This document shows, one piece after another, positions 3 through 6,799 of a stretch of DNA of 14,316 nt. The notes beneath the pieces were generated by a model. It worked only from the letters and a program-made list of their open reading frames with translations, was not told the DNA's origin and made no database searches. The translations under genes were made by a program, and so were the position numbers. The DNA is from a bacterium (GTDB lineage Bacteria > Bacillota > Clostridia > Oscillospirales > Acutalibacteraceae), in the NCBI GenBank assembly GCA_020626545.1, contig JAHKZS010000052.1, positions 1-14,316 of the forward strand, given 5' to 3'. Within the stretch, counting starts at the first letter, position 1, and every line of letters starts with the position of its first letter.

Positions 3-365
3 GCGGTCGAAAAGAAATCCTCTAAGCTATGGCACTCAATCGCGGGAAGTGTGTATGTCCGCGATACGCTTAATATAAACGACGAGGATATTATTAATTC
101 AATTAAATACCATACAACAGGCAGAGCGGGAATGTCTTTACTCGAAAAAATTATATTTGTCGCTGATTTTATAAGCGATGAACGTAATTACAACGGTGTT
201 GATATAATGCGTGAAAAGGCCTTTAACTGCCTTGAAGACGCTATGTTGTTTGGATTAAAATTTACAATTACAGATTTAGCAAATAGAAATTTAACAATAC
301 ATAGCAACGCTATAAATTGTTATAATGATATTATATATATTTTAAAAGAGAAAGGGTTGCTGTAA
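3..365 (+). CDS. yqeK: YqeK-family HD-domain hydrolase, 3' fragment
   Basis: The frame is open from the left window edge (first full codon at 3) to TAA at 363-365, so the N-terminal part, including the first metal-binding HD residues, lies outside. The visible 120 residues are the C-terminal half of a YqeK-type HD domain: a KLWHS-IAG segment, then YHTTGRAGMS followed by LEKIIFVADFISDER, matching the family's 'HTTG..(M)S.L.KII..AD.I...R' block. Family knowledge: YqeK proteins are metal-dependent hydrolases that cleave diadenosine tetraphosphate (Ap4A) symmetrically, and the gene commonly sits just upstream of rsfS in Firmicutes. That is also the case here, with the stop and next start overlapping by one base (TAATG). 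The GTG at 51 is an internal valine codon, not a start. Identification rests on motif and synteny and is fairly secure; enzyme activity is inferred. Confidence 0.85.
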   Translation, partial: AVEKKSSKLWHSIAGSVYVRDTLNINDEDIINSIKYHTTGRAGMSLLEKIIFVADFISDERNYNGVDIMREKAFNCLEDAMLFGLKFTITDLANRNLTIHSNAINCYNDIIYILKEKGLL

Positions 366-731: not shown

Positions 732-3146
732 TTGAAGTATAATCACAAGAATGTTGAACCTAAATGGCAAAAAATATGGGAAGATAAGGGAGTTTTCCAT
801 GCCGAAAACGATACTTCCAAGGAGAAGTTCTACGCGTTAATCGAGTTTCCGTATCCGTCGGGACAAGGCTTACATGTAGGACATCCTCGTCCTTATACCG
901 CTTTAGATACAGTAGCCCGTAAGCGCAGATTACAGGGCTATAATGTGCTGTATCCTATAGGATGGGACGCGTTTGGACTTCCTACGGAGAACTACGCTAT
1001 CAAAAACCATATTCACCCCGAAATTGTAACTAAACAGAATATCGCGAGATTCAAAAAGCAGATTCAGTCGCTCGGTATTTCTTTTGACTGGAGCCGTGAG
1101 GTCAACACCACTGACCCTGAATACTATAAATGGACGCAGTGGATTTTCCTTCAGCTCTTTAAAAAAGGACTCGCGTATAAAAAAGAAATGAACGTTAACT
1201 GGTGTACTTCCTGTAAATGTGTATTAGCTAACGAGGAAGTTGTAAACGGTAATTGCGAGCGTTGCGGAAGCGAGGTTATTCGTAAGGTTAAATCTCAGTG
1301 GATGCTCAAAATCACAGAGTATGCCGACAGATTAATTAACGACCTCGATTTAGTAGATTATCCCGCTCGTGTTAAGGCTCAGCAGATTAACTGGATCGGT
1401 CGTTCTACAGGCGCCGAGGTTGATTTTACCGCGACAACAGGAGATACTCTTACAGTTTATACAACACGTTGCGATACGCTCTTTGGAGCTACATATATGG
1501 TTATCTCGCCGGAGCATCCTCTTATCGAGAAATGGGCGGATAAACTTAATAATATTGACGAAATAAGAGCTTATCAGCTCGAGGCTTCCAAAAAGTCTGA
1601 TTTTGAGCGTACCGAAGTTGCTAAAGAAAAGACAGGCGTTCGTTTAGACGGTGTTGAAGCAGTTAACCCGGTTAACAATAAAAAGATTCCTATTTTTGTA
1701 TCCGACTATGTATTAGTATCTTACGGTACAGGCGCTATTATGGCTGTTCCCGCTCATGATACTCGTGACTGGGAGTTCGCTAAGAAATTTGACTTACCGA
1801 TTATCGAAGTTGTAAAAGGCGGCGAGAATGTTCAGGAAGAAGCCTTTACCGACTGTGCTACAGGTGTTCTTACTAACTCCGGATTTATTGACGGGTTGTC
1901 TGTCGAGGACGCTAAAGAAAAAATGATTAAATGGCTTGAGGAAAATAAACTCGGTCGAGCTAAGGTTAATTATAAGCTTCGTGACTGGGTATTCTCACGT
2001 CAGCGTTACTGGGGAGAGCCTATTCCGATAGTTTACTGCGAAAAATGCGGATATGTACCGATAGACGAGAGCGAATTACCACTTAAACTCCCTATGGTTG
2101 ATTCTTATGAGCCTACAGATACCGGCGAATCTCCGCTCGCTAAGATGACTGACTGGATTAACACAACCTGTCCTTGTTGCGGCGGAAAAGCTTTAAGAGA
2201 AACTGATACTATGCCTCAGTGGGCGGGTTCATCATGGTATTTCTTAAGATATATGGATCCTCACAACAGCGAAGCTTTAGCTTCTAAGGAAGCTTTAGAG
2301 TATTGGTCTCCTGTTGATTGGTATAACGGCGGTTTGGTACTTACTTAGCTCCTCTTGTTAGATAGTCGATTCTGGCACAATTTCTTATACGATTTAGGTA
2401 TTGTTCCGACTAAGGAGCCTTACGCTAAACGTACAAGCCATGGTATGATTCTCGGCGAAAACGGCGAGAAAATGTCTAAGTCAAGAGGTAACGTTGTAAA
2501 TCCTGACGAAATTGTCGATGAGTACGGCGCGGATACAATGCGTCTTTACGAGATGTTTATCGGCGACTTTGAGAAAGCTGCTCCGTGGAAAACATCAAGT
2601 ATCCGAGGTTGCAGAAGATTTATTGAAAGATTCTGGAATTTACAGAATATTTTAGTTGACGAGGATATTATCAGACCTGAACTCGAAAGCGCTTTCCATA
2701 AAACTATTAAGAAAGTCGGCGAGGATATCGAGAACATTAAGTTTAATACCGCTATCGCGGCATTAATGTCCTTAATCAACGAGATTACATCCTTCGGTTC
2801 AGTTTCCAAGAAAGAGCTCGCTGTATTCGCAATCCTCTTAAACCCGTTCTCACCGCACGTTAGCGAGGAAGTATGGGAAGTATGCAACTTAGGAGAGGGA
2901 ATAGTAGCCGAGCAGAACTGGCCTGAATACGACGAGAGTAAATGTGTTGAGGAAACTATTGAAATCGCCGTACAGGTTAACGGCAAGATTAAGACTAAAC
3001 TCAACATTAACCCCGACGCTGAACAGGATGAAGTTCTAACGCTTGCTAAAGCTGACGAAAACGTAGCTAAAGCTATTGACGGAATGAATATAGTTAAGGA
3101 AATCTATGTAAAAGGCAGAATTGTAAATATTGTTGTAAAACCGTAA
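732..3146 (+). pseudogene. leuS: Leucyl-tRNA synthetase, interrupted by an in-frame stop
   Basis: LeuRS charges tRNA-Leu with leucine. The frame starts at TTG 732 behind GGGAGGT (719-725) and, read through one TAG at 2346-2348, gives about 804 codons to TAA at 3146, the normal bacterial length. Everything expected is present: the HVGH form of the HIGH motif (about residues 48-51), a zinc-binding Cys set (about 157-178), the CP1 editing domain with a threonine-rich TTRCDTLFG segment and the HDTRDWEFA aspartate, a second Cys-rich segment before [16 protein letters not shown] (about 579-583) and the anticodon-binding and C-terminal domains. The sole defect is codons 535-544: in the normally near-invariant block GGMEHTTLHLLYSRFW these ten residues read L-V-L-T-stop-L-L-L-L-D, then SRFW resumes in the same frame. 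The 3' part (from 2355) has no Shine-Dalgarno sequence and would lack the HIGH motif, so neither half should be active. Since LeuRS is essential, an assembly or sequencing error, or a second copy, must be considered. Confidence 0.9.
2334..2363 (+). other. leuS: Scrambled 30-base patch with premature TAG in leuS
   Basis: Ten consecutive codons read TTG GTA CTT ACT TAG, then CTC CTC TTG TTA GAT. The family consensus at this place is M-E-H-T-T-L-H-L-L-Y. The patch has exactly the right length, and the flanks (WYNGG before, SRFWH after) are intact. Back-translating the consensus with the fewest changes gives ATG to TTG, GAA to GTA, CAT to CTT, ACN to TAG, CAC to CTC and TAY to GAT, so five of about seven changes would be A to T. 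The parental codons are inferred, not observed. Confidence 0.75.
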
Positions 3147-6159: not shown

Positions 6160-6799
6160 GCTTTATAAAAAGAAAACTTCAAGACTACATAAAAAACTGA
6201 GGAAGATATTTATTATATCAATATGCCTAATTATCTTTTTAACTGTATTATTCGAAATCCAGGCGATACCATTTACAAGAAAATGTGTAAATAAACAGGC
6301 TAAAACTATTTCGTCTAAGATAATAGGGGAGTCGGTATGTAGTATTCTCGATAAATACAATTACAAATATAACGATTTATCGGTAATTAATTACTCAAAG
6401 TCGGGACAGGTTAACTCTATATCCTCAAATACTGTAAATATTAACAGGATAAAGTCTAATGTTATTAAACGCATCCAAGATGAACTCGATAAAAGTAAGA
6501 CTTATAAGTTTTCATTACCCTTGGGTTCGTTTACGGATATAACTTTATTTAGTACACTTGGACCCGAGATAGAAATCAGCTTTATATTAACCGGTTCGGT
6601 TAATTGTGCTATAAAAAGCGATTTTAACAGTTCAGGTGTGAATCAGACTATACACCACATTTACCTTGTAGTCACTACCGAGATAATTACAATCAGCCCT
6701 GAATATAGTGAAAAAGTAAAATATACGACCGATTATGAAATAGCTCAGACAGTTATTGTCGGCTCGGTTCCGTCAACATACGCAGATATTGTGAGATAA
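6158..6799 (+). CDS. yunB: Sporulation protein YunB
   Basis: A 213-residue single-pass membrane protein: a basic N-terminus (KKKTSRLHKKLRK), one hydrophobic segment (about 17-38), then an extracytoplasmic domain. The C-terminal two thirds match the YunB family closely: GSFTDITLFSTLGPEIEISFILTGSV, then NQTIHHIYLVVTTEI, then a conserved ending with AQTVIVGSVPSTY. In B. subtilis yunB is expressed in the mother cell under sigma-E and is needed for normal sporulation; its biochemical role is not known. The start is unusual. The frame is closed upstream by TAG at 6137, no ATG or GTG lies between that stop and the membrane segment, and TTG 6158 follows GAGGGG (6146-6151) with a six-base spacer, all inside the preceding terminator. 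No promoter, sigma-A or sigma-E, could be recognised upstream. Confidence 0.9.
   Translation: MLYKKKTSRLHKKLRKIFIISICLIIFLTVLFEIQAIPFTRKCVNKQAKTISSKIIGESVCSILDKYNYKYNDLSVINYSKSGQVNSISSNTVNINRIKSNVIKRIQDELDKSKTYKFSLPLGSFTDITLFSTLGPEIEISFILTGSVNCAIKSDFNSSGVNQTIHHIYLVVTTEIITISPEYSEKVKYTTDYEIAQTVIVGSVPSTYADIVR

Follow-up and report, generated by a model that had tools for sequence, protein, structure and literature searches.

Bacterial leucyl-tRNA synthetases (LeuRS), with 1h3n, 6q89 and 3zgz as solved relatives of the protein considered here, are recognized by a score above the curated TIGR00396 cut-off, an uninterrupted frame, the HIGH and KMSKS signatures, and the Glu and His of the priming loop. 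For the N. gonorrhoeae enzyme, the available excerpt of PMC9424281 describes a contact of H547 with the leucine carboxylate and a role of E546 (E532 in E. coli) in transfer; a role for E. coli E532 is also given in an excerpt of PMC5059758. According to a review (PMC8021871), assembly errors may be set off by conserved interspecies repeats where coverage is low, and some k-mers of coverage 1 are rescued by MEGAHIT.

The window analyzed here, the whole stretch of 14,316 bases, is one entire contig (C9) of a draft genome (G000). The reference was its nearest relative, a sister genome (G059, loci L039 and L124), to which the window aligns by BLAST as one collinear piece at 89% identity. The gene order of leuS is common to both genomes, and the neighbors are presumably rsfS and rpsU, names that were read off the sequence. 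The features of the gene are these:

Positions 732 to 3146, forward strand: leuS, leucyl-tRNA synthetase, with a TTG start, 804 codons, a TAA end and one internal TAG.
Positions 873 to 884, forward strand: HVGH, intact, read directly from the sequence, which we take to be the HIGH signature.
Positions 2334 to 2363, forward strand: the patch as first reported, codons 535-544, reading LVLT-stop-LLLLD, with 13 of 30 bases mismatched to the sister.
Positions 2334 to 2381, forward strand: the altered stretch at its full extent as judged, up to the changed Lys550 codon, with 16 mismatches to the sister.
Positions 2346 to 2348, forward strand: in-frame TAG, present in the sequence, the ORF list and the profile search.
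Positions 2469 to 2483, forward strand: KMSKS, intact, read directly from the sequence and taken by us as the signature of that name.

Like its solved relatives, the window's LeuRS matches the family model over its full length (993.3 bits against a cut-off of 548.4, model positions 1-843, with the stop read through in the profile search) and retains both signatures. Unlike them, it has lost the priming loop and the motif that follows, and its frame, open everywhere else, is split by the TAG into ORFs at 732-2348 and 2355-3146.

The original prediction had described one stop codon in an otherwise normal leuS, lying in a scrambled patch of unchanged length, and the coordinates, the frame and the content of codons 535-544 all hold. 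The codons are bounded by intact WYNGG on one side and SRFWH on the other, and alignment to the sister is free of gaps across 2334-2369. Only the extent was set too small: codon 550 encodes Asn in the window in place of a Lys kept in all 116 sampled loci showing the motif (near-duplicates counted), and for this reason we take the altered stretch to run to about 2381.

The motif had been described as near-invariant, and all 115 occurrences among sampled relatives are normal (MEHTTLHLLY in 114, MEHVTRHLIY in one; near-duplicate loci included, own loci excluded), as were 91 of 91 in an earlier count; the relatives are all of other species. Normal codons in reads or relatives had been named beforehand as the mark of an artefact, and a patch shared with relatives as the observation that would speak against a recent event. 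A search of 161 genomes of the genus for the 39-base patch, with up to three mismatches, returned only the window's own genome, the 160 others being without it. A LeuRS-profile match was present in 160 of the 161 genomes and exceeded the cut-off in 147, and among the matches listed an internal stop in leuS occurs only in the window's own.

Outside 2334-2381, leuS differs from the sister at 182 of 2,367 bases (7.7%), against which the excess of mismatches in the 30-base patch has a binomial P of 1e-7. The two proteins differ at 22 of 804 codons, seven of them within codons 535-550, and in columns where two near relatives agree there are 11 residue changes specific to the window, of which six fall in codons 535-544 and one is Lys550. 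Three other spots in the window are similarly divergent from the sister, at 6338, 12645 and 12744, and these sit in genes of lower conservation, where 31 of 213 and 50 of 655 residues differ. The remainder of leuS is under purifying selection, which bears out the earlier view that the patch is not ordinary decay. Absence from relatives, in a gene otherwise under selection, is the combination taken to indicate an artefact, and it is the combination found.

As to function, alignment to solved LeuRS chains places codons 535-538 on GIEHA, the priming loop of the N. gonorrhoeae enzyme. The Glu and His of the loop are changed (codons 536 and 537, the equivalence coming from the alignments), and the protein as written terminates after residue 538. 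Because residues of the leucine-binding loop are lost, the encoded protein should not work. Since the frame stays open beyond the TAG, one might suppose that recoding or suppression of this codon leaves the gene functional. However, reading through the stop leaves Glu, both His and Tyr missing, as had been anticipated, and Lys as well, so that this proposal is contradicted by the loss of the priming loop itself. Moreover, of 289 long stop-to-stop frames in the examined stretches, 35 end in TAG, and no tRNA with a CTA anticodon occurs among the 16 tRNA loci of the draft, an incomplete set. We reject recoding, the probability of which is vanishingly small.

By manual reading of the difference list, the 16 differences in 2334-2381 divide into eight that change residues and eight others. 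All of the former are transversions (A to T five times, and C to A, T to G and G to T once each), whereas seven of the latter are transitions; outside the patch, 891 transitions and 614 transversions were counted (41% transversions). At that background the chance of eight transversions is 0.408^8 = 8e-4, a post hoc figure. We read the patch as a probable burst of wrong bases superimposed on ordinary divergence between species. Within codons 535-544, a hand count finds 18 positions that are fixed whatever the synonymous codon, of which seven differ (A to T at five, C to A and T to G at one each). The earlier count of five A-to-T changes in about seven therefore stands at codon-fixed positions with no recourse to back-translation, whereas the implied preference for A over non-A positions is weak (Fisher P 0.049, from the same hand count). 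Ranked by A-to-T changes, the 48-base window 2306-2353 comes first of 202,835, with six against five for the next best and one of the six outside the patch, and so is not a strong outlier on its own; by total transversions per 48-base window, variable regions score higher and the patch lies outside the top eight.

Adenine-directed mutagenesis of the type practiced by diversity-generating retroelements would account for a change at five of the seven adenines among the codon-fixed positions (hand count). Yet all five went to T alone, C, T and G positions were changed too, and no near-copy that could serve as template was found in the draft, which is incomplete and part-masked. To our knowledge, LeuRS is not a target of such elements, and we regard this origin as barely conceivable. 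Other sources of the altered bases were sought with similar outcome. A template switch or inverted copy was rejected, since random 48-mers match the flanking 1 kb on either side as well as the patch does (283 of 300 controls were as good in direct and 218 of 300 in inverted orientation), and a repeat search of 2100-2600 gave none overlapping the patch. A paralogue in the same genome was likewise rejected, the only matches inside the patch being of 11 and 14 bases. A foreign origin was also discarded: viral contigs gave no exact match to two 21-base pieces, no plasmid match was found, and the matches to phage, three records of 21-23 bases with E of about 4, are at chance level.

The draft itself comprises 1.86 Mb in 271 contigs, with 86.8% completeness and 4.9% contamination; its tRNA matches number 16, below a full set. 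Its quality was assessed by comparing 61 of these contigs to 1.16 Mb of sister sequence, which gave 45 blocks of at least 80% identity totaling 205 kb. Projection of 188 sister genes (61,527 codons) onto this part of the draft yielded 22 in-frame stops, of which only that in leuS survived inspection, the remaining 21 being judged to be shadow frames or to lie upstream of start codons, in gaps or at alignment edges. The reverse projection gave, as a raw count, eight stops in 189 genes. Windows with at least six changed codons in ten numbered 38 in each direction and, apart from leuS, resemble linkers, repeats, and gapped or fast-changing places. The draft is mostly clean. The survival of the leuS stop alone is evidence against a generally noisy assembly, and a genome-wide error was rejected for the part of the draft compared. 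At another locus of the draft (L169, G000:C22), 12 of 36 columns differ from the sister between about 5766 and the contig end, beside an identical stretch, possibly another tail of base errors.

A search for a second leuS, suggested with the original prediction, found none above the cut-off in the draft with its short contigs masked; other matches scored at most 89 bits, against the required 548.4. In the sampled part the masking covers 16 of 61 contigs, each below 3 kb, and 34,644 of 427,694 bases. With the draft incomplete and part-masked, a second leuS could sit in what is missing or hidden, and the outcome of that search is to be read accordingly. This leaves room for a recent and real clustered mutation, by error-prone repair or local synthesis, that killed leuS in a genome with another LeuRS on the missing DNA; the unchanged flanks, still under selection, are in keeping with such an event. 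On the other hand, no second copy was recovered from the part-masked draft, the patch is absent from the 160 other genomes of the genus, and one would have to accept that a strain whose essential gene is dead at its normal locus supplied the majority sequence of a metagenome. A genuine event in a living population, in which some error-prone local DNA synthesis placed a burst of chiefly A-to-T transversions in 48 bases of leuS while an unseen second gene kept up the LeuRS function, is quite unlikely. If true, an essential gene would have undergone clustered mutation that is tolerated by way of an unseen backup.

The same gene was also examined in other drafts of the genus. Among the matches listed there are 24 truncated leuS matches, 13 of which end at model positions 425-569, an interval that makes up 17% of the model (P for clustering 4e-5, with the interval picked after seeing the data and G083 and G004 counted twice). 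The 24 rows were read by hand and do not include G159, G062 and G012, in which the frame is open over the full length; leuS of G159 and G062 was complete on inspection. Fourteen stretches from 12 genomes, chosen for match ends in or near the interval or for oddness and covering 11 of the 24 rows, were inspected, and contig ends within leuS codons 440-577 were verified in eight genomes (G171, G183, G090, G083, G132, G028, G133 and G156). In one locus (L251, G027:C12) leuS lacks 38 bases of the conserved core at about 2585-2592, in codons 488-500, and its frame is shifted. In another (L261, G023:C107, bases 1-98) leuS passes at codon 442 into 98 bases that have no LeuRS match and lie at a contig end, likely an assembly tail. 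The clustered truncations and the verified contig ends show that drafts of this genus often run into trouble in the catalytic core of leuS.

Such breaks at this place in leuS also lend something to the notion of a junction error, in which the leuS halves of two related strains were joined and the garbled stretch is the seam. In its favor, third-position divergence from the sister is 98 of 534 codons before the patch and 68 of 254 after it (Fisher P 0.009). However, the change point that fits best is at about 1614, away from the patch (permutation P 0.048), divergence tends to climb along the entire contig, and window and sister form one collinear alignment. We consider a seam distinctly unlikely. 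The climb is an observation in its own right: in the first gene (window 3-365), 5 of 120 codons differ from sister locus L124 at the third position, against 30 of 120 in the next, and such differences tend to increase toward the right end of the window, possibly reflecting a recombination mosaic.

The explanation that we favor, with a probability of roughly 0.88, is that the error lies in the sequence as assembled and not in the organism, with a normal leuS underneath. Among the causes listed at the outset, an assembly or polishing error is thus the one preferred, and the more exotic options found no support. A fragmented metagenome assembly would have met a hard-to-assemble stretch of leuS, which may have been spanned by a single read or a handful of reads containing clustered wrong bases, originating, for example, from rescued singleton k-mers, a bad segment of a read or a forced bridge. 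The outcome would be a stretch of correct length with both flanks intact. We infer that the normal motif would appear in the reads, that coverage was low, and which step of assembly failed. An error of this kind is supported by the fragmentation of the draft into 271 contigs, by the intactness of leuS elsewhere, and by the loss of catalytic residues in the sole match over the cut-off. In these respects, a fragmented draft and a conserved essential gene hit by a lesion absent from the examined relatives, the case is like the local base errors and misassemblies of metagenomes, and it is like the other drafts of the genus that break in the same part of leuS.

Several observations count against an artefact. 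De Bruijn assemblers require reads that contain the patch, and no other recognized lesion of the same kind was met in the 188 projected sister genes. Eight errors in 48 bases between good flanks are unusual, and the excess of A-to-T changes is without explanation. Exact 21-mers common to 109 relative loci reach their maximum about 90 bases upstream, with no peak at the patch. Most known assembly errors are joins, breaks or indels; the patch differs from these in being made up solely of substitutions that leave the length unaltered, and in its excess of A-to-T changes.

The real genome thus very probably has an ordinary leuS at this position. The case is a caution that errors made up of substitutions alone, with no change of length, can occur in a universal gene of a draft, and that a profile search reading through stops still scores such a faulty gene far above the cut-off.
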